Assembly (NCBI GenBank): GCA_903835255.1
Contig: CAILMI010000025.1
Coordinates: 1 to 52,900, forward strand
DNA: 52,900 bases
Origin: an uncultured Verrucomicrobia subdivision 3 bacterium
Lineage (GTDB): Bacteria > Verrucomicrobiota > Verrucomicrobiia > Limisphaerales > UBA11358
Direction of reading: 5' to 3'
Shown in pieces: positions 23,003 through 38,059 of this stretch. Each line of letters begins with the position of its first letter. Position 1 is the stretch's first letter. The position numbers and the translations under genes were made by a program. The notes beneath the pieces are model-generated. The model ran no database searches, was not told the origin of the DNA, and saw nothing but the letters and a program-made list of their open reading frames with translations.

Positions 23003-24421
23003 ATGGAGACATTAACAATGAGTCGGAAAGAACGGGAACGATTGACGATCATGACGGGCGTAAAGCGGGAGGAACTGACGCTGGTGCAGGCGAGCGAACT
23101 GATGGCGGTGTGCTATCGCCAGAGCAAGCGCATTTGGCGGCGGTATCAGGACGATGGCGACGCCGGGTTGGTGCATCGGTTGCGGGGGAAGCCCAGTGCG
23201 CGCCGCAAGCCGCCCGCACTGCGGGCACGGGCGCTAGCCCTTTATGCGGAGGAACGCTACTCCGACTTCGGACCGACGCTGATGGCCGAGCAGCTGGCGA
23301 AGGAAAAGCTGGTGGTGGATCATGAGACGTTGCGGCGCTGGCGGCTGGCCGAGGGGAAGCATACGGTGCGGCGGCGGCGGCAGCAGCACCGGCAATGGCG
23401 GGAACGCAAGCCGTGCTTTGGGGCGATGGTGCAACTGGACGGGTCGCACCACGACTGGTTCGAGGGGCGCGGCCCCCGATGCGTGCTGATGGTGATGGTG
23501 GACGATGCCACCAACGAGTTGCACGCCCGCTTCTTTGAGGAGGAGACCACGCGGGCCAGTTATGATGTGCTGGAAGGCTGGGTACGGCGGCATGGCCTAC
23601 CCGCCAGCCTATATGTGGATCGGGACAGCATCTACCGGTGCGAAGGCGCGGGGAGCATCGCCGAACAACTGGCCGGGAAAGCGCCGCAGACGCAGTTTGG
23701 GCGGGCGATGGAGCAATTGGGGGTGGGACTGATCCTGGCCAACAGCCCGCAGGCCAAGGGCCGTGTGGAACGGATGAACGGCGTGCTGCAAGACCGGCTG
23801 GTCAAGGAGATGCGGCTGGCCGGGATTAACGGCCTGGAAAGCGCGAACCGGTTTCTGGAGGAGCAATATTTGAAGGCGTTCAACCGGCGGTTTGCGCGGG
23901 AGGCGGCCAGTCCGGTGGACGTGCATCGGGCCGTGCCACGGAACTTGAACGCGGTGCTGAGCTGGGAAGAAGAACGCGTGGTGGCCGGGGACTGGACGGT
24001 GGCGTGCACGGGGAAGCGGTATCAGTTGGACCGGGAACACGAGGCGATGAGCCTGGTGCGGCGGCAGGTGGTGGTGCGGACGCTGCGCGACGGGCGGATA
24101 CAACTGGTGTATCGCGGCAAGCTGCTGAAGTGGCGGGAGCTGCTGGCTGGCAGCGCGAGACCGCCGCTGCGAGCCAGGCCGATGCTGGCAGAGAAAACAA
24201 AACCGGCGGCCCCGTCGCCGGCGATGAGCCATCCGTGGCGGCGGGACGGGGTGGGAATGGGGCGAAAGTATTGGAGCGGAATCAAGGCACGCGGGCGCGC
24301 GGTGCGGCTGGAGGTGCGGGACTCCGGTCAGCCTTCGCTACGCTCCGGCCTCCCTGCGTCCCGCACCTCCAGCCGGGGAAACCGAACAACGAACAATAAC
24401 CAACGAAGGGGACATTTCTAA
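23003..24421 (+). CDS. DDE transposase of the insertion sequence
   Basis: 472 residues. N-terminal HTH region MSRKERERLTIMTGVKREEL with VYRQSKRIWRRYQ-type helices, then an rve-type DDE core: MVQLDGSHHDWFEGRG (first Asp), LYVDRDSIYR (second Asp), and ANSPQAKGRVERMNGVLQDR (Glu in the ERMNG block). This is the layout of ISNCY-family transposases. The C-terminal 45 residues are encoded by a palindromic element and the IS end itself, so their sequence is probably incidental. The frame is intact and the enzyme may be active. ATG at 23003 or 23018. Confidence 0.92.
   Translation: METLTMSRKERERLTIMTGVKREELTLVQASELMAVCYRQSKRIWRRYQDDGDAGLVHRLRGKPSARRKPPALRARALALYAEERYSDFGPTLMAEQLAKEKLVVDHETLRRWRLAEGKHTVRRRRQQHRQWRERKPCFGAMVQLDGSHHDWFEGRGPRCVLMVMVDDATNELHARFFEEETTRASYDVLEGWVRRHGLPASLYVDRDSIYRCEGAGSIAEQLAGKAPQTQFGRAMEQLGVGLILANSPQAKGRVERMNGVLQDRLVKEMRLAGINGLESANRFLEEQYLKAFNRRFAREAASPVDVHRAVPRNLNAVLSWEEERVVAGDWTVACTGKRYQLDREHEAMSLVRRQVVVRTLRDGRIQLVYRGKLLKWRELLAGSARPPLRARPMLAEKTKPAAPSPAMSHPWRRDGVGMGRKYWSGIKARGRAVRLEVRDSGQPSLRSGLPASRTSSRGNRTTNNNQRRGHF
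24308..24372. repeat. Palindromic element, second copy
   Basis: Same sequence as 11-75: 15-bp perfect arms at 24308-24322 and 24358-24372 within the transposase 3' end. Confidence 0.9.
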
Positions 24422-24442
24422 AGAGTTTTGACAGCCGGAGAT

Positions 24443-24499
24443 TTAAAACGTCCCCCCTTGGCTGTGGGCGATTGTCACGGTAAAATATTTCAGTTTCAA
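24443..24499 (-). pseudogene. Start of a small gene cut off by the IS
   Basis: TTG at 24499 opens the frame LKLKYFTVTIAHSQGGTF, which stops 9 bases before the IS end. The 70 or so bases around this start align with the start region of the small protein gene at 33409-33648 (MKLKNLIPLR...), including the ribosome binding site and the upstream palindrome. It therefore looks like a second, truncated member of the same regulated gene family. Only 18 codons remain. Confidence 0.5.
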
Positions 24500-24522
24500 A
24501 CTCCGCAAGTTTACAGTTTCGG

Positions 24523-24543
24523 GTTGGACATCGGCAGTCCAAC
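24523..24543. promoter_or_regulatory. Palindromic operator-like site, copy A
   Basis: GTTGGAC-N7-GTCCAAC, perfect 7-base arms. It lies 24 bases upstream of the truncated TTG start on the minus strand and 9 bases after the helicase stop. Read on the minus strand, its TTGGAC could serve as a -35 element with a TAAACT-like -10 about 20 bases on, the usual place for a repressor site. Copy B at 33672-33692 has the same spacing to its gene. Confidence 0.6.
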
Positions 24544-24551
24544 TGAAAAAT

Positions 24552-26981
24552 TCAAAGTTTTTCAAGCCAGCCGCCATCACGGACGAAATGTTGTGAAATA
24601 CACTGCAATCTTTGCGGAAACTGGCGCTCAACCGTGACTCCGAGGAAACTCCGCGCACGGCTTAAACCGACATAAACAAATTTGTCGATCAAATCCTTGT
24701 GGATTTCGGCCATACGGTCGAGACCGACGTAAAAAACGGCTTCAAATTCCAAGCCCTTGATGAATTCAACGGGGAAAATGCGCACACGGGCCGCGTCTCC
24801 GAGTGCTTGCCCGCCGTTCGAGCCCTCCAATTCCATTCCGTTTGCCTGCAACAGTGGCTTTAATTTCTGACGCAACGGTTCGACATCATCCTGATGTGCG
24901 ACGAGGATTGCCGTCGTGGGCAAATGTTTGCCGCACAACACGTAAATTTCACAAATTCGATCGGTCAGCCACATTTCCGCCGGATTTTCGGTGGTGCATT
25001 TGTGCAGCAGAGGCGGTGGGTCTTCTACACGTTTGGCGAACGCGGACGAAAAATCCGGTTCAATGCCTCGGGAATGCCGATAAAGATCCTTGGCAATGGC
25101 GAATAGGCGCTCAGTCTGGCGATAACTGATGCGCAATTCCTTGCCGTCGTATCCCTGGGAAAAGTCGGTGAGGTCACTCCACTCTTTCAAACCCTGTTCT
25201 GTAACTCGTTGCATAAGATCTCCGCAGATGGTGACACCGCCGGAACCCATTCTGGCGAAACGCTCGATGCAAGCGATTTCCAGCGGCGAAAAATCGGCCG
25301 CCTCATCAACGCAAACGAGAATCTTTATGCGCGCTTGTATGGCGCGCACTTCCCCAGGAATTCCGGACAGATTGACAGGCAGGTCGTCCAGTAAATCTCT
25401 CACAAATTGCAACGCGTGGAAGAGGAGCACGTCTTGTTCTGGTTCGGTTAACATCCGGTTCTTGATGGATGACTCGGCATCTTCAACAAAGAACCGTTTC
25501 TGTTCGTCTGGCAGTTCGCGAAACTCCTGATAGGCGCGCGGAATTAACTGAAAGAGGCGACTGAGGGTTGTGGTGTCCATCAAATTCCTGACATCACTGC
25601 GTAAATTGTCAATGAGCGGCGGAATATCTGGAAACAGGGCGACCTCCATGCCGGCCGTGGTCAGAGATGTCAGAATGTCCGGCAGCATCTTGATTTGGCG
25701 GTAAATGCGGTCTAACGGCAGGTCGCTGTTTTCATCGTATAGCGCGGCTACCGACCGAACGGACTTGAGCAGTTTGTTCAAATCTTCATTCAAATTGCGG
25801 TATCCTGCAGCCCGCTGCTGGGCCTGTCGAAGCGCGATCACATCGTCGAGCGGTTTGGACATGATATCCAAAGCCATGCCGAGAACTTTCTGGGCGGCGT
25901 CCGATAATTTGCCCAAGGGGACGCGGGTGTCGTTGTTGAATTTTTGTAACGCCTCGCGAAAAGACGAGGAATAGCGAGCCGCCAAAGTCTTGCCGAACGC
26001 CTTAGCGAGGGAGATCTGTTCGCCGCCGGTACCGCGCTTCATCAATTGCAATTCCTCGGGTGCGGTTTTGAAATAACCATGCTGGCCCACGCGAATGAAA
26101 CCTATGTCACGGACTAGTTCGAGGCGAAAGGTGCGATAAACCTTCACGTGGTCATCGCTGGCTGGAAGATGCTCCTTGGCCATCGCCTCCTTGAGATAAC
26201 CCTTCAAAAGGTCACTGGGAGTAAACAGCATCCAGTTGCGACCTTCCTGCCAATCCGCATCACGTATGGGCTTGGATTCATCCTCCGTGAGAAATTCTCG
26301 TTTGGTTTTTTGCGAAAGCCGCTTGAGTAAGACAGTGGTCTTGCCCGTGCCCGGCGCGCCGGAAATACGAATACGCGCCTGTAGTGGCAGACGAAAAATC
26401 TCATCCTGAGCAGGATCCAGAATTGCCTGGTCGGGCAATTGAACGGAATAGCTCAACTGCCGTGATTCCTGGGCGCCTGCCCCAATGCCGATCTCAAGAC
26501 CAGCTACCAAAAGTTTCCGGAGTGAGCGTGCAAGCAGACGTTGATCAATCCACGAAATCTGGTTATTGATCGCATCCCAGATTCCTTCCTCAAGGTGAAG
26601 TGTAAACTCGTCCTTTTCGATCAGGCGAAAAAGGTGGTCTTCCAGCACCAACCCGCCGCGTGTTTTAATCTGGAATGAATATTCTGATCCCGGTTTTTTG
26701 GCGACAATCCGGCCAAGCGGGGAAAGATAGCTGGTAAAATCAACTGCCGTTCCGCGAGGGCTAAAATTCAGGGGGATATAATGCCGGCAAATCAATAGTT
26801 TCAATTCGACATTGTTCCTGTCCGAAACACGAGCATAGCCGATAAATGGCTCGTGTGTAAGCTGCGTCTGAGTGTGATGCGTCAGCCCGCCGCCTTGGGG
26901 TCGGAAGTTTTGCTTAAAATGATCCAGCTCTCCGAGAATAAATTCGGCGATATTCCGTGAGGGATTTTGAGTTTCAGGCAT
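24552..26981 (-). CDS. UvrD-like superfamily 1 helicase with an N-terminal extra domain
   Basis: 809 residues. About 190 N-terminal residues have no recognisable domain. The helicase core carries motif I SGAPGTGKTTVLLKRL near residue 210, a Walker B variant VCVDEAADFSPLEIACIERF near 556 (DEAA where DEAQ is usual), TICGDLMQRVT, the arginine motif LRISYRQTERLFAIAKDL, an EFIKGLEFEAVFYVGLD block and motif VI VYVGLSRARSFLGVTV. About 300 residues separate motifs I and II, as in HelD-like or viral-type SF1 helicases rather than UvrD itself. It should use ATP to move on nucleic acid or remodel a nucleoprotein. It is preceded on the same strand by two genes facing an ECF sigma pair; a 244-base gap separates it from them, so it may have its own promoter. 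Confidence 0.85.
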   Translation of the reverse strand: MPETQNPSRNIAEFILGELDHFKQNFRPQGGGLTHHTQTQLTHEPFIGYARVSDRNNVELKLLICRHYIPLNFSPRGTAVDFTSYLSPLGRIVAKKPGSEYSFQIKTRGGLVLEDHLFRLIEKDEFTLHLEEGIWDAINNQISWIDQRLLARSLRKLLVAGLEIGIGAGAQESRQLSYSVQLPDQAILDPAQDEIFRLPLQARIRISGAPGTGKTTVLLKRLSQKTKREFLTEDESKPIRDADWQEGRNWMLFTPSDLLKGYLKEAMAKEHLPASDDHVKVYRTFRLELVRDIGFIRVGQHGYFKTAPEELQLMKRGTGGEQISLAKAFGKTLAARYSSSFREALQKFNNDTRVPLGKLSDAAQKVLGMALDIMSKPLDDVIALRQAQQRAAGYRNLNEDLNKLLKSVRSVAALYDENSDLPLDRIYRQIKMLPDILTSLTTAGMEVALFPDIPPLIDNLRSDVRNLMDTTTLSRLFQLIPRAYQEFRELPDEQKRFFVEDAESSIKNRMLTEPEQDVLLFHALQFVRDLLDDLPVNLSGIPGEVRAIQARIKILVCVDEAADFSPLEIACIERFARMGSGGVTICGDLMQRVTEQGLKEWSDLTDFSQGYDGKELRISYRQTERLFAIAKDLYRHSRGIEPDFSSAFAKRVEDPPPLLHKCTTENPAEMWLTDRICEIYVLCGKHLPTTAILVAHQDDVEPLRQKLKPLLQANGMELEGSNGGQALGDAARVRIFPVEFIKGLEFEAVFYVGLDRMAEIHKDLIDKFVYVGLSRARSFLGVTVERQFPQRLQCISQHFVRDGGWLEKL

Positions 26982-27225
26982 AATTAATTATTGGCGGTGG
27001 TTATTGATAATCAGAGGCATATCCCTAACGAAAGTCTTATGTGATGGCCTGCAAATCGCAAGTGGGAAAACGCGCCGGATCGGCACTGAAAATAAGTGGC
27101 AGGGCGGTTGCGTAACAGCCTGATGTAGCACCGCGACTGGGCGGAGTGGATTTGAGTTTTCATGGGGATAGCATCGCTGGATGGGTATGACAAAAGCTGA
27201 CGTAGGGATGAAGATTGTATTAATT

Positions 27226-27903
27226 TCATTTGCACGCCTCGATTTCTTCAACGCTCAACGGCAGATGTTCCAGCAGGCCGTCGGCGATTTCCCAATGGCC
27301 TTTGTCTCTGGCGGTGATGCTGCCGATGGCCTTGAAGGGGACTTCCGCCTCGATGAGGCGCTCCCGTAGCCAGGTATGAATTGCGCAGGGCGTGCACCAA
27401 GCTGCTGGTTCGCCATGCTCAGGCAGAGTTGCCGGAAGATTCTTGGAAAATACCGCGCCTCCGATGGTGAAGTTGACGCGAAGTTTCAAACCTTTCGCCA
27501 CTGACGATTGGTCTGGCGGCGGCACAACAGCATTGCCAGCGGTCGTCGCAGTAACGGCGATGCTCGTTGCCGTGCAGGACTGTCGCGGCGCACGCGGTTT
27601 TTCAAACGCGAGAACACGACTGCGGGCGCTGCGGCGCTGGGCAGCGGTGACGCCGAGGTGATGCTTAACGAAATCCAGGGGCATGACGGTGAGGATGCCG
27701 CCGTCGTCGGCATCCTGCACTACGATAAGCCACGCATGATCGGGACTGGAATAAAGAAGTCGCTTGGCGTGGCGACCGCCTTTCTGGAGAGCGACGGGAA
27801 TGGTGACGCCGTTATCCAGAAGGCGCGTCAGGTTTTCGGGTGAGAGTTTACTGCGCTCACTCAAACGAATTGCAGCGTGCTGTGTCAGAATTGCGTTTCT
27901 CAT
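27226..27903 (-). CDS. Unknown protein with a DUF4258-like N-terminus
   Basis: 225 residues. The first 80 (ILTQHAAIRLSERSKLSPEN ... LLYSSPDHAWLIVVQDADDG) have the His/Arg pattern (H-x-x-x-R-x-x-ER) and short beta hairpins of DUF4258/BrnT-like small RNase-fold proteins. A low-complexity linker (residues about 100-125) follows, then a C-terminal part with AWCTPCAIHTWLRERL containing a C-x-x-C pair. It is 23 bases after the ARPP-1-like gene and probably co-transcribed. The function is not known; the RNase-like comparison is weak. Confidence 0.6.
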   Translation of the reverse strand: MRNAILTQHAAIRLSERSKLSPENLTRLLDNGVTIPVALQKGGRHAKRLLYSSPDHAWLIVVQDADDGGILTVMPLDFVKHHLGVTAAQRRSARSRVLAFEKPRAPRQSCTATSIAVTATTAGNAVVPPPDQSSVAKGLKLRVNFTIGGAVFSKNLPATLPEHGEPAAWCTPCAIHTWLRERLIEAEVPFKAIGSITARDKGHWEIADGLLEHLPLSVEEIEACK

Positions 27904-27926
27904 AGTTTTTGAGGTTTTTATTCGTG

Positions 27927-28910
27927 TTAGTAACGGCGGCGATTCCTGAGCGAAGCCATTTTAGTGGCGTGTGATGGCCACGACGTTTCAAGTTGAAAAA
28001 AGGCGGAATGAATCACTTCGTCGGCATGGACTAGGGCCGCACCGGCGAGCGCTTCACCACGGTAACGGTAGTCGAACCCGCAGCCGACGGATGGAAAACG
28101 GTTTTCGTTTGCAGCAACCACTTGATCCTGGAAAGTTTTTGCCAGGGCAACGAAATCACCCTGTAAACGCTCTTGGCCTGGTGCTTCCAGCAGACTTTCC
28201 AGCGCGTAGCTCCGGATGAGTTTTGGATGAATTGCCGCGTAGGCCGAACTCAGAGAAATCAGATCGAAGCCGGCGGGGCGGTTATTCGTGAAGGCCAGCA
28301 AGCCGATTTGGCCGGGAATGCACTGGAAGATTTCCGCGCAGCAGCGGAGGTCCACTTCACGGGCCTTGAACACATCGTTCATGGCGGACGTGGGCGAATA
28401 ACAGCATGCCTTGGCAGACAATTCCGAGATCTCGTTCCAGACCTCGCCCTGGTTGGAAAGGAAGGAAGCAGACGTTTCGAGCGACTGAGAAACGGAACGG
28501 GATTTCATAGCTCGGGCTTTTTGCGCCATAACGTTGCCGGATTCGTTAAATGAGGGTGAGGCGTAAGACCAGCGGCCCTGTTCAGTGCAGCTGACGGGAA
28601 TTCGGGTCTCGGAAAGTTCCTTGAGCAGGATGGAGGTATTGAGCACGCGATTCTGCTTGGCGCCGGCGAGCTCCTCGCCGTCAATGAGCAGCACGGCGGT
28701 TTTCCCCCGGTTGATGACCAGCAATTCCGGCACGGCACCGGCGGCGGAAACCTCGGTGATGAGGATATCTGTGGTGGCGAGGGCTTCGCCAAGTGTGCGA
28801 TATTGAAATGCACCATCACGAGCCAGCAGCGGCACGATGGCGATATTTTTGTAACGCTGGACTTCTCCGAACTGAATCGACTGCAAACGACTGGCAACAA
28901 CATTATCCAT
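27927..28910 (-). CDS. ARPP-1 (DUF6569) family protein
   Basis: 327 residues with the signature LLIDGEELAGAKQNRVLNTS near residue 75, preceded by the beta-strand-rich VQRYKNIAIVPLLARDG and followed by VSCTEQGRWSY. This is the hallmark block of the ARPP-1/DUF6569 family (ARG and rhodanese-phosphatase-superfamily associated), whose members are proposed parts of biological conflict or stress systems. The biochemical activity is, to my knowledge, not established. AAGGA lies 5 bases before the ATG. It is the first gene of a minus-strand set and is divergent from the ECF sigma gene across a 155-base shared promoter region. Confidence 0.8.
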   Translation of the reverse strand: MDNVVASRLQSIQFGEVQRYKNIAIVPLLARDGAFQYRTLGEALATTDILITEVSAAGAVPELLVINRGKTAVLLIDGEELAGAKQNRVLNTSILLKELSETRIPVSCTEQGRWSYASPSFNESGNVMAQKARAMKSRSVSQSLETSASFLSNQGEVWNEISELSAKACCYSPTSAMNDVFKAREVDLRCCAEIFQCIPGQIGLLAFTNNRPAGFDLISLSSAYAAIHPKLIRSYALESLLEAPGQERLQGDFVALAKTFQDQVVAANENRFPSVGCGFDYRYRGEALAGAALVHADEVIHSAFFQLETSWPSHATKMASLRNRRRY

Positions 28911-30610: not shown

Positions 30611-31315
30611 TCACCCAGCAGCAACACACTCCGGCCCATCGTTCCTGGCATTGTTGACCATCGCAGAAACCTTTGAACACTGCATCTTTTCAGCGTCATA
30701 AGGCCTAAGCAACGTCTTCAAAAACTCGAGCTCAAACTTCGGTTCCAGCCACCAGGAATAATGCTCAGGCCAAAGAATAACCGGCATCCTTGAGTGAACC
30801 TGAGCCGCCATCAAATTCGGTTCACAAGTGATGATGGTGAACGTCTCAACGACCTGGTTTATTGAGGGGCCGGTGTCGTCCAGTCCAAGCTCGCCTTCTT
30901 GATGAGGTCGAATCCAGCGTTCCCACAATCCAGCCATGCAAAAGAACTGGTTGTCAGCCATCGTGAATCTGAACGGGATTTTGCCGGTTCCTGATCTCTG
31001 CCATTCGTAGTAGCCATCAGCAGGAATCAAACATCGCTGCTTTTGGAACAGCCTTTTGAAGCTCGGTTTTTCGGTCAGTGTTTCGGCCCTAGCGTTCGTC
31101 AATTTGTCGCCGATCTTTTCATCTTTTGACCAGCTAGGAATCAGACCCCAGCGCATAGATTTAAGCACGGTTTGATTGTTTTCCAAGACTAGCACCGGAA
31201 CATTTGAACGAGGGGCAATGTTGTAGCGCGGTTTGAAGTCCGAGATTTTGCAGATGAACTTGACCAGTTTTTCAAGTTCGCTGAGGTCTTGCGTAATGGA
31301 ATAACGGCCGCACAT
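30611..31315 (-). CDS. SRAP-family protein (YedK/HMCES type)
   Basis: 234 residues. It begins MCGRYS with the catalytic Cys2 that links covalently to abasic sites in single-stranded DNA. Conserved blocks follow: PRYNIAPRSNVPVL, MRWGLIPSWSKD, TNARAETLTEKPSFK, CLIPADGYYEWQ (active-site Glu) and QVHSRMPVILWPEHYSWWLE (active-site His). The family shields abasic sites during replication. It starts 1 base after the UDG-like stop, so it is the last confident gene of a polymerase/UDG-like/SRAP operon, a sensible grouping: base removal creates the abasic site that SRAP caps and the Y-family polymerase bypasses. Confidence 0.93.
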   Translation of the reverse strand: MCGRYSITQDLSELEKLVKFICKISDFKPRYNIAPRSNVPVLVLENNQTVLKSMRWGLIPSWSKDEKIGDKLTNARAETLTEKPSFKRLFQKQRCLIPADGYYEWQRSGTGKIPFRFTMADNQFFCMAGLWERWIRPHQEGELGLDDTGPSINQVVETFTIITCEPNLMAAQVHSRMPVILWPEHYSWWLEPKFELEFLKTLLRPYDAEKMQCSKVSAMVNNARNDGPECVAAG

Positions 31316-31316
31316 T

Positions 31317-32024
31317 TTATTTTTCTAGCTGGGCGGTCGCTGCATTTATTGCATCATTTACGTAATCCGCTCTTTTTTTTCGTGATGATGGATGGCTGAC
31401 CCAGACCAACCTTTGCTCAGTCGAAATTTGAACACAAGCTGCAGATCCGAACCACGTCCATTGTGTGAATGGAATCCCCCAATCCTCCCGAATTAAATTT
31501 GCCTGAGGGTCACATGCAAAAATTATGTTTGGCGCGTATGTTTTGATCTGGTCTAGAATTATTCCGCGATGTCTTTGGTATGCTTCAACAATCCTGTTCC
31601 ATGGCGTGTATTTGAGCCCAGGGAGTTTGCTGATATTTATGAAAGCGATCTTTTTTAAGCCACTCCGTATTTCATCGGAATTTCTCAACCACGGCATTTC
31701 GTCCCAGTCATGAACACCTGACCAAATCCCATAATTGACATAACAAATTGGCTGAAAAGCTCGACCGCGTGAAGTCTCGTCAGTTTTTTTGTTCATGCAG
31801 TCGTCTGTCAACGACCAGCCACCATCCCTCGAATCACCATAGCTTTCTCCGTTATCGTATGGCTCTTTCAAGACCCAAAGAATTCGCGGTGCTGATGCTA
31901 CATACAATTCGGGATTCACGACTCCATCATATATCGGTTCTGAACCGCCGGATGTGTCCTGGTATTCTTGGGCCACAGCCTCTTTCAAGCGCTTTTCTTC
32001 CTCCATTATGAAGTTCAGATTCAT
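31317..32024 (-). CDS. Possible uracil-DNA-glycosylase-fold protein
   Basis: 235 residues. PRILWVLKEPYDNGESYG looks like the first strand and active-site loop of the UDG fold (ILFVG-x-x-P position). KKIAFINISKLPG matches the strand before the substrate loop, IIFACDPQANLI the third strand, and VWVSHPSSRKKR the H-P-S motif of the DNA-intercalating loop. No classical catalytic Asp motif (GQDPYH) is present, so the assignment is by pattern only. It lies between the Y-family polymerase gene (26-base gap) and the SRAP gene (1-base gap), which supports a DNA-repair role. Confidence 0.5.
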   Translation of the reverse strand: MNLNFIMEEEKRLKEAVAQEYQDTSGGSEPIYDGVVNPELYVASAPRILWVLKEPYDNGESYGDSRDGGWSLTDDCMNKKTDETSRGRAFQPICYVNYGIWSGVHDWDEMPWLRNSDEIRSGLKKIAFINISKLPGLKYTPWNRIVEAYQRHRGIILDQIKTYAPNIIFACDPQANLIREDWGIPFTQWTWFGSAACVQISTEQRLVWVSHPSSRKKRADYVNDAINAATAQLEK

Positions 32025-32050
32025 CGTAAAATTCTACGGTTGGTGAGCCA

Positions 32051-33412
32051 TCAAAACAACACTCCTTGCTCTGATTTCACCGGCCCTTCACTTCCCCACA
32101 ATTTCGTTATCATTTCTCGCTGTGGTGTGAACGGACATTTGGCTTTCGGCTGCTTCTGTGATTCGTCGATGTGCTGCAAAGCTAACTGAGCGCCCGTAAT
32201 CAAAGCCGTTTTTCCCAGCTTCTGATTCAATTCGTGCGTAGCGTCATCCAAAGCACCCCACCTCTCCTCATTCGTCCTGCCCCATAAAGTTGGGTGCGTG
32301 TCCAGCCTCTCCAAATTATACATCGCGATTCTGATTTGCCGAACTGGTCTTTCTCTCCCACCCATAATTTCTCGAAACATCTGCTCCAAAACTGTATTGA
32401 TGACCGAATTCAAAAACTGTGGATGTTTGAATCTGAAACTCGTCCCAACCTCTGTAAAATCGTTGAACCTGACCGCGATGCTAAATTCTCTGGCCTGCAT
32501 CTGTTCTCTGCGCAATTGACCGGTGAGCCTAGTCGCTTCGCTCAACATAAATGTCAGGGCCGCTTCGTAATCATGTTCGTCTAATGGAAGTGTGGTGGAG
32601 CTCGAAATCGTGGTCCTGTCCTTGATTTCCAACACAAGCGGTTCATTCCACTGCCCATTCGAAAACAACCACAACTGCTGCCCCCAAATCCCGAACTTCT
32701 GGCGCATCAACATCGAGGGCAGTTTCGCTACATGCCCAAATGTCAGAGCGCCTAAAGCAGCCAAACTTCGCTGCCTATTTTTCCCAATCCCGCTCATTTC
32801 TTGAACGGGTCTGTCTCGGAGAAATTCCTTTTCTCGACCAGCCTCAACTTCCATGAACCCAACGCCTTTTGCAGCATCAGTAGCGAGCTTAGCCATTTTT
32901 GCCGAGTTCCCAAGCCCAGCAGTAACAGGCAATCGAACCTCTTTTTTAATGCGTGACCTAATGTTCTGGACGTAATCAGTCGGCGTTGTGTTCCTCCAAA
33001 TACATTCGTCAAAACTGGTCAAATCCAGAAAGCCCTCGTCAATGCTGTAGGGAACAAGTGTAGGGGCGTATTGTTCGAGAATCAGAAACATCTGCCTACT
33101 CAATTCCCTGTAAGCGTCGTAATGAGGCCGGCAAAGCACACCAGAAGGACACAACCTCTTCGCCTCAAAACAAGCAGTGCCAGTCTTGATGCCGTATTTT
33201 TTAGCTATTCGGTTCGCAGCGATCACAATGCCGTCACCTCTTCTCCCACCACCGACCCAAACTGGCCTGCCTTCCAAGCTCGAATCCAAAGCAATCTCAC
33301 AGCTGGCGAAAAAGCTATCGCCATCTACGTGCAGGATTCGGTTGTTGCGGCGGCTCATCGGCAGCAGACACGTTACGTCTTCCGCTGCCTCCGTCCATGC
33401 CAAGTTGTTCAC
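32051..33412 (-). CDS. Y-family DNA polymerase (DinB/UmuC type)
   Basis: 453 residues. RILHVDGDSFFASCEIA carries the first metal-binding Asp with FF steric gate, PYSIDEGFLDLT the catalytic Asp-Glu pair, TAGLGNSAKMAKLATDAAKG the palm/finger motif and MSGIGKNRQRSLAALGALTF the helix-hairpin-helix thumb. A little-finger domain follows. It copies past lesions. The GTG start at 33412 overlaps the stop of the small upstream gene (GTGA); a second start, MSRRNNRILHV at 33358, is equally good by sequence. It is the core of the damage-tolerance cassette. Confidence 0.93.
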   Translation of the reverse strand: MNNLAWTEAAEDVTCLLPMSRRNNRILHVDGDSFFASCEIALDSSLEGRPVWVGGGRRGDGIVIAANRIAKKYGIKTGTACFEAKRLCPSGVLCRPHYDAYRELSRQMFLILEQYAPTLVPYSIDEGFLDLTSFDECIWRNTTPTDYVQNIRSRIKKEVRLPVTAGLGNSAKMAKLATDAAKGVGFMEVEAGREKEFLRDRPVQEMSGIGKNRQRSLAALGALTFGHVAKLPSMLMRQKFGIWGQQLWLFSNGQWNEPLVLEIKDRTTISSSTTLPLDEHDYEAALTFMLSEATRLTGQLRREQMQAREFSIAVRFNDFTEVGTSFRFKHPQFLNSVINTVLEQMFREIMGGRERPVRQIRIAMYNLERLDTHPTLWGRTNEERWGALDDATHELNQKLGKTALITGAQLALQHIDESQKQPKAKCPFTPQREMITKLWGSEGPVKSEQGVLF

Positions 33413-33648
33413 ACAGGTTGAAGCCTTGGAAAACGAAGGATTTGGGGTTCCGGTTCTTGGCGCTGGAAATGTGTGAAAACAATTTCACGCGCAAACAGCG
33501 AGGCCCATTCAAAGGCTGCGGTCCGGTCTTGGTCAGTTCCGCCAATCAATTCGTGCTGCCCATTCGGAAGTTTGACGAGTCTGGCGTGACCGAATTGCCG
33601 GATCAGTTTTGTGCGATAGCGTAAAGGAATCAGATTTTTAAGTTTCAT
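33409..33648 (-). CDS. Small conserved-looking protein leading the DNA-damage cassette
   Basis: 79 residues, MKLKNLIPLRYRTKLIRQFG ... KLPNGQHELIGGTDQDRTAA ... FEWASLFAREIVF. The ATG at 33648 has GAGG about 5 bases upstream. Upstream in-frame codons run through the operator and are excluded. It looks like a small beta-rich protein; I do not recognise a named family. It overlaps the polymerase start by 3 bases, so it belongs to the operon. A partner role for the polymerase, in the way UmuD serves UmuC, is only a guess; it shows no Ser-Lys protease pattern. Confidence 0.65.
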   Translation of the reverse strand: MKLKNLIPLRYRTKLIRQFGHARLVKLPNGQHELIGGTDQDRTAAFEWASLFAREIVFTHFQRQEPEPQILRFPRLQPV

Positions 33649-33671
33649 ACGCCTCAACTTTACGGGAGAGG

Positions 33672-33692
33672 GTTGGACATCCGCTGTCCATG
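33672..33692. promoter_or_regulatory. Palindromic operator-like site, copy B
   Basis: GTTGGAC-N7-GTCCATG, arms matching at the inner GGAC/GTCC, centred about 34 bases upstream of the small-protein start on the minus strand. Together with copy A at 24523-24543 it defines a motif TTGGACATC-S-GC-W-GTCCA (S = C/G, W = A/T). It lies in the 174-base region shared with the divergent viperin operon, so one repressor could govern both. The verrucomicrobial LexA site, as I recall it (TGTTC-N4-GAACA), is different. Confidence 0.6.
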
Positions 33693-33822
33693 TTGAATCT
33701 CTCGTTAAAACCGACATTTTAACAATTGCAAATACCTGCATTCATGATTGTTACAAACAAATTAAAACGTTCCGAATCTAGCCCTTTTGAGAACAAGTTG
33801 TGATTCGCCGAAGCTGGTGGCG

Positions 33823-34728
33823 ATGAAAACAACAATTATTCCACCAACTGTAAACCTCCACAGCTTGATTGCCTGCAACTATAAGTGCGGTTTCTGTTAT
33901 GCAGGCTTTGCCTCTGCAAAGCGAACGCACATTCCGCAGGCCGAGCTGAACGAGATTATCCGGCAAATTAAATCAGCGCCACTGCCAGCTAAAACGCGAG
34001 CACGAAAAATAACCTTCGCAGGAGGTGAACCCCTGCTTTCGCCTACCGCGCTGAATGACATCGCCTTCGCTCACGCGCAAGGCCTGTTCACCTCGTTGGT
34101 CACGAATGGTTCCTTGCTGACGGAGGAAAAATTATACCAGCTCGCACCGATCCTGGATTGGTTGACCATCAGCATTGATTCGCTCGATGACAAAACCAAT
34201 CGCCGTATTGGCCGTGCAATGCGGGGAGTAACCATAAGCGCCGCCGATTACCTGAACAAAATTCATTTGGCTCAAGCACTCGGCATCAGGGTGAAGATCA
34301 ATACCGTGGTCAATCAGGCCAATGCGGCGGAAGATTTCAAAACATTCATTCGAGCTGCCCGTCCTCTACGCTGGAAACTTTTTCAAGCCACACATATCGC
34401 GGAAGAAAATGGCCGGGAATTTGACCGCTGGGGAATCAACGAGGCGACGTTCCGTGCTTTTGTCGCGCGGCACGAAGAATTAGCACGCGAAGACGTCGTG
34501 CTCGTTCCCGAGCGTCAGGTAGATATTTACGGCACCTATGCGATGGTTGGCCCCAACGGATGTTTCTTCGACAACTCAAATGGCAGCTATCGCTATAGCC
34601 GCCCCATCGCCAGCGTGGGCATTGAAGCCGCGTGGTCTGAAATCACATTCTCGGAGGAGCGCTTCCGCATACGCAATGGGGACTACGACTTCGTCACGGG
34701 TCTGAATCGCAAGGAGGTGGCCCAATGA
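33823..34728 (+). CDS. Prokaryotic viperin homologue (radical SAM, ddhNTP synthase)
   Basis: 301 residues from MKTTIIPPTVNLHSLIACNY, ATG preceded by GGTGG. The radical-SAM cluster is C18-x-x-x-C22-x-x-C25 in the viperin context CNYKCGFC. Further viperin landmarks in order: KITFAGGEP (62-70), LVTNGSLL (92-99), ILDWLTISIDSLDD ... IGR (110-131), VKINTVVNQAN (157-167), LRWKLFQ (182-188) whose Lys contacts the nucleotide triphosphate in viperins, VLVPE, and SVGIEAAWSEITFSEERF near the end. Each aligns in order with human viperin (CNYKCGFC, INFSGGEP, VRWKVFQ, DVGVEEAI). Viperins turn CTP, GTP or UTP into 3'-deoxy-3',4'-didehydro nucleotides that stop polymerases, an antiphage defence in bacteria. 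It is the first gene of a three-gene overlapping operon. Confidence 0.88.
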   Translation: MKTTIIPPTVNLHSLIACNYKCGFCYAGFASAKRTHIPQAELNEIIRQIKSAPLPAKTRARKITFAGGEPLLSPTALNDIAFAHAQGLFTSLVTNGSLLTEEKLYQLAPILDWLTISIDSLDDKTNRRIGRAMRGVTISAADYLNKIHLAQALGIRVKINTVVNQANAAEDFKTFIRAARPLRWKLFQATHIAEENGREFDRWGINEATFRAFVARHEELAREDVVLVPERQVDIYGTYAMVGPNGCFFDNSNGSYRYSRPIASVGIEAAWSEITFSEERFRIRNGDYDFVTGLNRKEVAQ

Positions 34729-34973
34729 AAATCATGGCGTTACCACCCTCGCAGGCAACGCGGTTGGCGCAGATCCGCCACGCACTTGAAATCGATCGTC
34801 GGCCACCCGGGGAATTTCACGGAAAGAGGCTTCAAAGCGCCCGATTTCTCATCTCGATTCCCCTTGGACGTCGCTGGCGCGCGTTGTTTGCTGAAACCGA
34901 AAACGGCTATAAATTCCGTGACTGTTTCACGCATGAGCGTTACAACAAAGTCAACTTTGCCGCATACAGATAA
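34725..34973 (+). CDS. Small protein with RelE/ParE-like C-terminal pattern
   Basis: 82 residues (ATG at 34725 overlapping the viperin stop by 4 bases; a second ATG at 34734 gives MALPPSQATRLAQIRHALEI). The second half, FHGKRLQSARFLISIPLGRR then WRALFAETENGYKFRDCFTH and ERYNKV, follows the strand order of RelE/ParE-type toxins (R-x-x-RAL(F/Y)...v...-f-H-x-x-Y). There is no antitoxin gene beside it. Its stop overlaps the next start (TAATG), so all three genes are translationally coupled. The family assignment is tentative. It might bind ribosomes or RNA, or act as an adaptor for viperin. Confidence 0.6.
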   Translation: MKIMALPPSQATRLAQIRHALEIDRRPPGEFHGKRLQSARFLISIPLGRRWRALFAETENGYKFRDCFTHERYNKVNFAAYR

Positions 34974-37486
34974 TGAAAACCAAACCGACGGATCCCATTT
35001 CCACGGCTTTGCCAACCTGTGGTGAGGTTTTTCATTTTGTCGTCACGTCACTGGATCTTCCCGCTTGGGCAGATGCTTTTCATGACCCCGGAACGAAACG
35101 GCGGACGGAAGCTGACATCAAGAAAGTAAGTGATCAATTGCGGGATTGGGCCACGGAGGCAGAAGGTCGCACGCCTAGTCGTGCCGAGTTTGACGAGTTT
35201 ATCCGGCAGCTGATTCAAGGGCTACCCCGGGCAAAGGAGCTCTCTTTTATTCTCGGCAGTGTTTGGAGCAACCTTCTTGATGACCACGCTGACGAAGTGC
35301 GCCAGAACGCTACTTTTCTGGACCGAAACGGAACCCGCGCTTGGTATGCCTTGTTTCAAGCACCGCGAACGCTCTTTTTCCTGTGGGCCTTGCAAATGTT
35401 TTTACAGCGATTGAATCAATCAAAAGGCCCGATTCTCAATGCTTCTTTGAACAATCTATTCGCCAAGATTTGGTGCGACACCGCAGTCATTGAGAAGCTG
35501 CCCGAACATCCGCTTCACATTTTTTGCTTCAAGCATTACACCGGTGTCGGTCCAGCGGTCAACTCCTTGGTCGATCTCAAAACCATTGCGGCATGGAGGG
35601 CGGGAGAAGACAAACCTTCATTTGATGCTCTCGGTCGGCACTTCGCGCAATTCCCCGATAAACTGGGGCTGGTGCTAAATTTTGCTTTTGCCAGTTTGCT
35701 TGAAAGAGTGGCCAACAGTCTCCGGAATTGGATAACGCCCGAGGCTTGGCCTGAATGCCGCCGGTTGTTGCTCGGTCAGGCACGCTGCATGGAGGTTTTG
35801 GATCAAGTTGTTGCAGATGCGCTGGCTCATTCGCCCGACCTGAGTTTGGTCGATTTTGAAGCGCTGATTTCAGCCTGCATAGGCGATTACATAAAGCACA
35901 CTAGCAATCTGCCACGCACAGGACTGGATGCGCTTGATCTACGGATTGCCCCCTTTCGGGTCTACGAGGAATATCATCAGTTGTTGGCAAGGCAGCCGAT
36001 GCCGGCAAGACTCGGCAAGTTTTGTGGTGACCTGGAGAATCTTTGGAAAGACACATCGCTCAAATCTCCGCAACTAAAACCATCTGAAGTCGCTGGCAAG
36101 TTGGAAATGATGCGGGCGGAGCATCCGGATTGGTGCAAGGCACTTGCCGGTCCTCTTCTAGCCATCGAAGCCCGGTTAGCGTTGCGCCATGAACCGCCAT
36201 CACATGATTCGTTGCAAAATGCCTTCAGCCTTTATCAGCAGGCGTTCGAGAAATCCCGCTATCAAGCTGGGACGTATACCATTCGCGTAGCGAAAGAAGC
36301 ACTGGGGGTGGCAGCGATGTTGCGTCGTCGCGAAATCGGTGGAGGTGCAATCAGGCCCTGGATCAAAAATGTCCTTTCGTGGTGGGATCTGCTCGGATTA
36401 GGAGACGAATACAATCATGAAAATCTTGATCAACGGATTGAACTCGCCGAGTCACGCTTTACCGATGAGCTGAATGTTGCATTACGCAGCCGCTTAAAAT
36501 CGGCACTCCCTCAGCTTGGCTTGACCCATTGGAATATTGGCGGCTTGTTCGGTTTCAGCGATTCAAACCAGGATCAACAACTTCGTGCAACCCCAGTAGA
36601 TCGGCGGCAAAAGAAGCCCATGTCCACGACCATTGTCGGGCGAGATCAGACTGCGCTGATGGAATCCATAGATCGCGGACATCTCGACCGCGCCTGCGAG
36701 TTGGTGCGCGATGGGGCGGATTTGAATTTCATCAATTCCACCGGCGACACCTGCGTGACGAAAGCGTTTGCGCGAAAATATTATGACCTGGTGCTAGAAA
36801 TTCTACGCCGTGATCACAACCCTATCCGTAGCGAGACTTTGCTTCGCGTCACCAATAAAAAGAAAATCAGCGGTCTTGAGCAGGCAATTTCCACAGGGCA
36901 GGTAGAAATTCTGCGCGAACTTGCCCGCCCTAAATCCGGACGGGGAAAGGACATTGATTTTAATACCGAGCGGATTTGGGATCAAACGCCGCTTTACTAC
37001 GCGGTCAGTTGTCTTGTCCACTTTAGGATGAATCCCCAAGAGGCAGCCCGGCAAGCAATACAGATGATGCCCAGTTCAATTGTTCAATCAGTCCGTCCAG
37101 AAACCATCGAGGAGGTGCGAAAGCATCTCGCCAAAGAATTTAACTACAATGGCGTTCTGAAATGCATCGACTGTTTCATCAACGAAATAAAGGTCGACCT
37201 CGATGCGCCAAACAAAAATGACCACACCGCGCTTACCCATGCAGTGGAACGCCGCATGCATGACGTGGCTGCTATGCTACTAGCAGCTGGTGCGAGCGTG
37301 AATCATAGGTTCCTTGGCGGTGGCACCGCGCTTGTGCACGCCATTCTCAATGACGATTACGAAATGGTGAAGCTGCTGCTTGAATACTGTGCCGACTATC
37401 GACTTTTCGTGGACGCGCTCGGACGGCCAATTTTCACGATGGAAATGTCAGAGAAAATGCGTCAGCTCATCCCTAATCGCCTTTAA
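34973..37486 (+). CDS. Large helical protein with C-terminal ankyrin repeats, viperin operon partner
   Basis: 837 residues. Residues 1 to about 530 are helix-rich with no family I recognise (FHFVVTSLDLPAWADAFHDP at the start). Ankyrin-type repeats begin near 555 (QTALMESIDRGHLDRACELV, RDGADLNFINSTGDT) and return near 748 (DHTALTHAVERRMHDVAAML, AAGASVNHRF, GGTALVHAILNDDYEMVKLL), with a less regular middle. Ankyrin repeats bind proteins, so this may be the sensor or scaffold of the system. It has no signal peptide or membrane segment. It starts inside the stop of the small gene (TAATG) and converges with the TIGR02450 gene, leaving 8 bases between stops. Confidence 0.8.
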   Translation: MKTKPTDPISTALPTCGEVFHFVVTSLDLPAWADAFHDPGTKRRTEADIKKVSDQLRDWATEAEGRTPSRAEFDEFIRQLIQGLPRAKELSFILGSVWSNLLDDHADEVRQNATFLDRNGTRAWYALFQAPRTLFFLWALQMFLQRLNQSKGPILNASLNNLFAKIWCDTAVIEKLPEHPLHIFCFKHYTGVGPAVNSLVDLKTIAAWRAGEDKPSFDALGRHFAQFPDKLGLVLNFAFASLLERVANSLRNWITPEAWPECRRLLLGQARCMEVLDQVVADALAHSPDLSLVDFEALISACIGDYIKHTSNLPRTGLDALDLRIAPFRVYEEYHQLLARQPMPARLGKFCGDLENLWKDTSLKSPQLKPSEVAGKLEMMRAEHPDWCKALAGPLLAIEARLALRHEPPSHDSLQNAFSLYQQAFEKSRYQAGTYTIRVAKEALGVAAMLRRREIGGGAIRPWIKNVLSWWDLLGLGDEYNHENLDQRIELAESRFTDELNVALRSRLKSALPQLGLTHWNIGGLFGFSDSNQDQQLRATPVDRRQKKPMSTTIVGRDQTALMESIDRGHLDRACELVRDGADLNFINSTGDTCVTKAFARKYYDLVLEILRRDHNPIRSETLLRVTNKKKISGLEQAISTGQVEILRELARPKSGRGKDIDFNTERIWDQTPLYYAVSCLVHFRMNPQEAARQAIQMMPSSIVQSVRPETIEEVRKHLAKEFNYNGVLKCIDCFINEIKVDLDAPNKNDHTALTHAVERRMHDVAAMLLAAGASVNHRFLGGGTALVHAILNDDYEMVKLLLEYCADYRLFVDALGRPIFTMEMSEKMRQLIPNRL

Positions 37487-37982: not shown

Positions 37983-38059
37983 TGGAGCGAGCGAAGGGAT
38001 TCGAACCCTCGACACTCACGTTGGCAACGTGATGCTCTACCAGGCTGAGCTACGCTCGC
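37983..38059 (-). tRNA. tRNA-Gly(GCC), CCA encoded
   Basis: On the minus strand, acceptor GCGAGCG (38059-38053) pairs with CGCTCGC, D-arm GCTC...GAGC, anticodon stem TCACG/CGTGA with loop TTGCCAA (anticodon GCC), T-arm GAGGG-TTCGAAT-CCCTT, discriminator T and encoded CCA (37985-37983). Its 3' end faces the defence-like island at lower coordinates, the usual insertion side for tRNA-targeting elements. Confidence 0.95.

Follow-up and report, generated by a model that had tools for sequence, protein, structure and literature searches.

The 52,900-nucleotide stretch of DNA analyzed here (the window) encodes a prokaryotic viperin together with two partners, a protein of 82 amino acids with a predicted RelE fold (P2) and a protein of 837 amino acids with ankyrin repeats (P3). 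The pairing of viperin with a downstream P3, in some cases with P2 in the middle, recurs in five other genomes and is thus not a product of chance. We propose, with confidence that is about evenly balanced, that these genes form a phage-defense operon in which viperin is the effector, P3 the sensor or gate and P2 an accessory arm that cleaves mRNA. The arrangement suggests that some bacterial viperins are the regulated effector of a larger phage-defense module.

All three genes are on the + strand. The viperin open reading frame (33823..34728, 301 amino acids) was read from the ATG at 33823 to the stop codon ending at 34728, and is followed by P2 (34725..34973) and P3 (34973..37486). Viperin and P2 meet at CCAATGAAA, a 4-base overlap, and P2 and P3 at GATAATGAAA, a 1-base overlap. 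An earlier note, made from the letters of the window, had given the same coordinates, viperin landmarks and overlaps, all of which were right on re-reading, and had described the genes as a coupled operon, which the overlapping junctions support at the level of gene layout. A TTG at 33787, 12 codons upstream of the ATG, is an alternative viperin start; 33823 is likelier because the family match starts at residue 8 when counted from the ATG. Scans of the locus for promoters and terminators gave results at chance level. The genome to which the window belongs contains one match for viperin and one for P2.

Viperin, a member of the radical SAM nucleotide dehydratase family, was identified using family models, comparison with PDB sequences and a phylogenetic tree. 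It scored 276.3 bits against NCBIfam NF038283 (prokaryotic viperin, cut-off 180) and 273.3 bits against the PADLOC pVip model, and its best PADLOC model was “viperins not associated with kinases.” The absence of a recognized adjacent kinase accords with this model: Pfam gave no kinase match for the three operon proteins or for the scanned neighbors (a DinB-type polymerase, an SRAP protein and a DUF2389 protein), and two further scanned neighbors of the operon had no Pfam match. The top PDB sequence match was a viperin-like enzyme (3.3e-32). The nine best were annotated as viperins, viperin-like enzymes, RSAD2 (another name for viperin) or, in four of the nine, “radical SAM core domain-containing protein,” and MoaA came next after these nine (4.2e-9). 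Direct reading located CNYKCGFC, KITFAGGEP, RWKLFQ and GIEAAWSEITFSEERF; CNYKCGFC (residues 18-25; 33874..33897, + strand) is the radical SAM CX3CX2C motif, and C18, C22 and C25 are unchanged across a five-sequence alignment (A1). The tree contained 97 rows, 88 of them viperins and nine a MoaA-like outgroup with some long branches. The two sets separated with support of 97/90, and the window protein fell within the viperins. Family match and tree position thus bore out the assignment of the first gene made in the earlier note, which had named a place outside the viperin clade, for example with MoaA-like proteins, as evidence to the contrary.

Relatives of the locus were retrieved by viperin, not P3. 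The GTDB species contigs were scanned and contained 394 viperin relatives. Among the best 80 of these 394, five (L039-L043), the five best-scoring, all from Verrucomicrobiota, have P3 downstream of viperin. With the window, six distinct viperin-P3 loci are known, and in all six P3 is encoded after viperin, either directly or behind P2. The order viperin-P2-P3 also occurs in L039, L042 and L043, whereas its absence from all other genomes had been named in the earlier note as evidence to the contrary; in L039 and L042, both junctions overlap by 4 bases. All six P3-bearing viperins belong to one clade of the tree (support 100/99), and the seventh row of this clade is a viperin fragment that lacks P3. 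In L044 (1075-2333), a P3-clade viperin fragment is between two RadC-like pieces (by eye) on a contig labelled Pseudolabrys, which we read as a recombinant or an assembly chimera.

Genome samples were also searched with P3. Residues 1-565 of P3 as query and a profile of its N-terminal half each matched 3 of 387 genomes of the phylum, while P3 matched 4 of 384 genomes of the class, three with full-length copies and one with a copy in two pieces; among the matches listed for the class, the others cover the ankyrin part only. The P3-based searches together gave four distinct genomes, including that of the window (L039 was taken to belong to genome G260, L040 to G614 and L042 to G039), and viperin adjoins P3 in all four. 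Viperin above cut-off was present in 12 of the 387 phylum genomes, three of which contain P3. No P3 was found away from viperin in the phylum and class genomes searched, and none in plasmid, phage and viral-contig collections. Profiles of P2 and P3 detected nothing in 22 viral-contig loci retrieved with a viperin query.

P3 consists of a helical N-terminal half and a C-terminal ankyrin-repeat domain (residues 556-837; 36638..37483, + strand), assigned using Pfam Ank_2, Ank_4 and Ank and the structural model. Ank_2 matched with 66.4 bits (cut-off 27.3), and the modelled domain aligned with the ankyrin domains of Bcl-3, IkappaBzeta and gankyrin (Z 17-19), so that sequence families and predicted fold agree with the earlier reading of an ankyrin-repeat protein. 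Outside the repeats, P3 is predicted to be helical; the predicted local distance difference test score (pLDDT) averaged 77.5 over the full length, and confidence was low at residues 513-558. Structure searches with this model were filled by ankyrin domains and were uninformative on the fold of the N-terminal half. Toward the start of this half is PTCGEVF (residues 14-20; 35012..35032, + strand), which is unchanged in five full-length P3 proteins (alignment A2) and is PTFGEVF in the Coraliomargarita copy. The fastest-diverging part (residues 111-400; 35303..36172, + strand) contains a weak stretch resembling an XRE helix-turn-helix (HTH) at about residues 165-223. Compared with four relatives, window P3 is 19-44% identical at residues 111-400 and 40-67% at residues 556-690. 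P3 diverges faster than viperin, because its identity to the L039 and L040 copies is 41% and 55% versus 76% and 64% for viperin. No dN/dS ratio is claimed, because dS was saturated (3.3) in the sole one of seven comparisons to yield values, the other six giving none. Pfam detected no HTH when eight segments, taken from P3 and from its relatives, were scanned at E up to 10; six segments were blank and the other two matched only unrelated families, below their cut-offs. P3 has no significant similarity to the large proteins upstream of viperin in L029 and L033 or downstream of viperin in L047. PADLOC PDC-M72A and Ankyrin matches were confined to the repeat part. A Dot/Icm-type ankyrin effector was rejected, the best NCBIfam match scoring 37.7 bits against a cut-off of 600 and covering the repeats only.

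P2 matched Pfam ParE_like PF24732 with 54.5 bits (cut-off 24.4, 1.2e-14). The AlphaFold model (mean pLDDT 90) was compared with known structures using Foldseek and VIA-align 2, and chains of RelE, YafQ, YoeB and HigB topped both lists. The best match was M. jannaschii RelE (Z 9.0, root-mean-square deviation (rmsd) 2.3 over 76 residues), and YafQ gave Z 8.3 and rmsd 2.4 over 75; Foldseek E-values were all >0.001, the best being 0.02. By this model P2 has a RelE (BECR) fold, in keeping with the RelE/ParE-like protein of the earlier note. Seven positions are invariant across six divergent sequences, including R52, H70 and Y73, which on this conservation could be catalytic.

The distribution of P2 was determined with a profile seeded by the window, L039 and L042 copies. 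Viperin was present in 91 of 92 fetched loci, which after removal of four duplicates and addition of the window made 88 distinct loci. A P2-like gene follows viperin in 7 of these 88, seeds included, the match in L033 being weak (E 0.055 and 0.094; Pfam 0.05). Four of the seven are P3 loci (window, L039, L042 and L043). P2 is therefore present in four and undetectable in two (L040 and L041) of the six P3 loci: 32 bases separate viperin from P3 in L040, and the gap in L041 has no P2 remnant in three frames. Since L040 and L041 are within the P3 clade of the viperin tree, P2 may have been lost once or twice, or lost and then regained. The set of viperin, small protein and ankyrin protein described in the earlier note accordingly stands for viperin and P3 (six of six loci) and holds for P2 in four of six. 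Of the two partners, P3 is thus the constant one and P2 the accessory. Retention of P3 where P2 is undetectable shows that P3 cannot act solely as the antitoxin of P2, and is our chief argument that it serves viperin.

Viperins make RNA chain terminators. By family, the viperin of the window would make chain-terminating ddh-nucleotides (ddhNTPs). P3 would probably be what senses infection for viperin or gates it, with an N-terminal half, helical and diverging, that would face phage or DNA and perceive infection or DNA, and with ankyrin repeats that would hold partners. P2, where kept, probably cleaves translated mRNA and so blocks translation, and would be restrained by P3 or by the complex. 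Infection would free both arms, ddhNTPs stopping transcription and P2 stopping translation. The genes, their order and overlaps, their co-inheritance and the predicted folds are the data from which we infer all activities and interactions.

Several results weigh against this proposal. The N-terminal half of P3 matched no Pfam family above cut-off and nothing below E 0.05 in a PDB sequence search; because it matches neither, sensing is a role that we infer for P3, and the sensor or scaffold of the earlier note has the same standing. No antitoxin gene for P2 was recognized at the locus, and P2 may be inactive. The L043 genes are separated by gaps, not overlaps. The L039 viperin, near a contig end, lacks residues 1-23. 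In Coraliomargarita, P3 lies in two pieces on separate contigs, and a 24-bp inverted repeat inside the gene is common to the two contig ends (L037 end, L038 start), consistent with an insertion element. Two of the six loci thus have a broken gene, and viperin and P3 are both intact in four. Since six loci are known, from the best 80 of 394 relatives, more or different contexts may exist.

A second group of large viperin partners was found in Chloroflexota. Viperin is followed by a protein of 546-877 amino acids in L090, L104, L108, L113 and G836, and the two partners scanned (L090 and L104) contain HTH_3 and tetratricopeptide repeats (TPRs) by Pfam. In a search of 251 Chloroflexota genomes, the partner profile aligned over most of its length with five copies; two are viperin-adjacent (G674, to which L090 belongs, and G836), while three have no viperin nearby, one of these being split into two frames. 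A further 21 genomes matched the profile only around the HTH. The first four partners compared with P3 using hhalign gave P values of 0.18 to 0.028, which are not significant; all 60 column-shuffled decoys scored below the 21.8 of this comparison, a weak control. An eight-sequence profile gave two collinear matches to the N-terminal half of P3, PTCGEVF with PTSGQII and the XRE-like stretch. Their summed score was reached by 0 of 300 block-shuffled decoys, the better single score was reached by 19 of 300, and reversed-profile decoys scored 22.0 and 24.3 versus 25.3 for the real match. The likeness is suggestive only, because the summed score was chosen as statistic after the matches had been seen. 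On balance, the sequence comparison favors a relationship between the N-terminal half of P3 and these HTH-TPR proteins. We tentatively suggest that the two constitute one class of viperin gatekeepers, with a common N-terminal domain and HTH and exchangeable ankyrin or TPR repeats, in which viperin is silent until infection and RelE-fold RNases are an optional second arm. If this less than probable suggestion is true, bacterial viperins are often regulated effectors of a sensing complex, not stand-alone enzymes.

Other explanations of the locus were weighed against the sensor-effector operon. P2 and P3 could be an ordinary HigBA-type toxin-antitoxin pair that came to lie behind viperin by happenstance, with viperin acting alone. 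The toxin-first gene order, as described for higBA in PMC11980606, the RelE-type fold of P2 and the weak XRE-like stretch at P3 residues 165-223 are in its favor; we consider it unlikely, as a HigBA-type toxin and antitoxin would occur together, whereas P3 is intact beside viperin and without detectable P2 in L040 and L041, is not found apart from viperin in the genomes searched and has no Pfam HTH in the segments scanned. More credible, yet still doubtful, is that P2 lacks RNase activity and, as an adaptor with a RelE fold, binds viperin or P3. RelE-fold genes adjoin viperins in three settings (with P3, in L029 and weakly L033, and in L098), and no antitoxin gene is recognized. According to Gerdes 2025 (PMC11980606), ParE gyrase inhibitors have a RelE-type fold without the catalytic residues of the RNases, and PF_ParE-like toxins, here read as PF24732, are little known or undescribed. 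The seven invariant positions of P2, with the possibly catalytic R52, H70 and Y73, argue in the other direction.

That P3 is chiefly a transcription regulator of the operon and not a protein-level sensor appears improbable, if somewhat less so than the HigBA-type pair. In its favor are the two weak collinear matches to the Chloroflexota partner, one in its N-terminal domain and one in its XRE HTH, the sum of which no block-shuffled decoy reached, and the HTH_3 of the L104 and L090 partners. However, the best single match is unexceptional beside the shuffled and reversed-profile decoys, and the short or imperfect inverted repeats that precede viperin in five loci have, by eye, no sequence in common. 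Least likely is that the genes are chance neighbors in a defense island with no joint function. Defense genes do cluster, and pglW and GajB are near two of the copies, but the genes overlap, the viperins with P3 form one clade, and no P3 was found elsewhere in the genome samples or in the plasmid, phage and viral-contig collections.

Other viperin loci had different neighbors. In L029 (614-3790) and L033 (8398-11857), a large protein is followed by viperin and then by a ParE_like small protein (weak in L033). The large proteins (640 and 727 amino acids) are homologous to each other (2e-25) and have no Pfam match, and the two loci are a further viperin trio, in which the large partner is not P3. 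In L047 (9001-11950), a viperin near the P3 clade is followed by an overlapping gene for a 699-amino-acid protein with no Pfam match, a third candidate large partner. L098 (9001-10842) encodes a viperin with an apparent C-terminal nucleotide kinase fusion (by eye), then a ParE_like protein whose N-terminal part is the zinc-binding DUF7682. By eye, viperin is followed in Myxococcota (L050-L054, L057, L060 and L065) by a touching or overlapping gene for a P-loop, nucleotide-kinase-like protein, and in Bacteroidota, mostly Flavobacteriaceae (L084, L087, L096, L107 and L111), by genes for a conserved 97-amino-acid protein and a HAD-like protein.

The neighborhood of some P3 loci speaks for a role in defense. 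In L041, pglW (1389 bits) comes after P3. The Coraliomargarita contig with the larger P3 piece encodes GajB (665 bits), a ResIII helicase and a PDC-M36A-matching protein, and that with the other piece a phage-type integrase. The operon of the window is in a stretch of lower GC content (46-53% at 31-38 kb, against 60-64% in the next 5 kb), although the 6 kb that precede 30 kb also have no more than 51-57%. A tRNA-Gly (37983-38059) is 0.5 kb from the operon; a mobile-element boundary at this tRNA was considered and rejected, as no exact copy of at least 13 bases of its end, as expected of an att-type repeat, was found within the window. Adjoining the operon on the opposite strand is a low-GC block (30611-33741) that encodes an SRAP peptidase (30611-31315, Pfam), a DinB-type Y-family polymerase (32051-33412, Pfam), and a 235-amino-acid protein and a 110-amino-acid open reading frame, neither assigned to a family. 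At 23003-28910 is a second accessory stretch: the open reading frame at 23003-24421 looks by eye like a transposase, the protein encoded at 24552-26981 gave a weak UvrD-like match, and that at 27927-28910 has an ARPP-1 domain.

The earlier note had regarded the combination of genes as undescribed, which stands, as far as the literature was searched, for the ankyrin partner and not for the RelE-fold gene. In published work, relE and hicA genes adjoin pVip genes and the RelE and HicA RNases are proposed to cooperate with pVips (Gerdes, mBio 2024, PMC10865869). No paper on a bacterial viperin with an ankyrin partner was found in a partial literature search; the original pVip paper, the 2024 viperin evolution paper and supplements may hold one. 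PMC13064858 was rejected as a prior report, its “ankyrin” concerning something else. The loci of PMC10865869 resemble the P3 loci in having a RelE-fold gene beside viperin; they differ in that the word “ankyrin” is absent from the main text.

Compared with pVip (NF038283, PADLOC), the window viperin shares the radical SAM core and CX3CX2C, scores above the curated cut-off and is inside the viperin clade, but is translationally coupled to a large ankyrin protein; a RelE-fold gene follows viperin in four of six P3-type loci. Unlike the pVip-kinase subtype, the window locus has no recognized kinase, fused or adjacent. HigBA and HigBAC are alike in encoding a RelE/HigB-fold protein before a larger downstream protein, and the logic reported for HigBAC is triggered abortive infection (PMC11980606); P3 differs in its 837 amino acids, its ankyrin repeats, its lack of a Pfam-detectable HTH and its persistence without P2. 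The Chloroflexota partner (L090, L104, L108, L113 and L210) is likewise a large repeat protein directly after viperin, with weak collinear N-terminal similarity to P3, but has TPRs in place of ankyrin repeats and a recognizable HTH, and is also found with no viperin nearby. How bacteria protect themselves from their viperins and switch them on is, to our knowledge, an open question, for which P3, paired with one viperin clade in all cases found, faster-diverging and kept without P2, offers a genetic handle. The known link between pVips and RelE is thereby extended to a three-gene module of a defined lineage.

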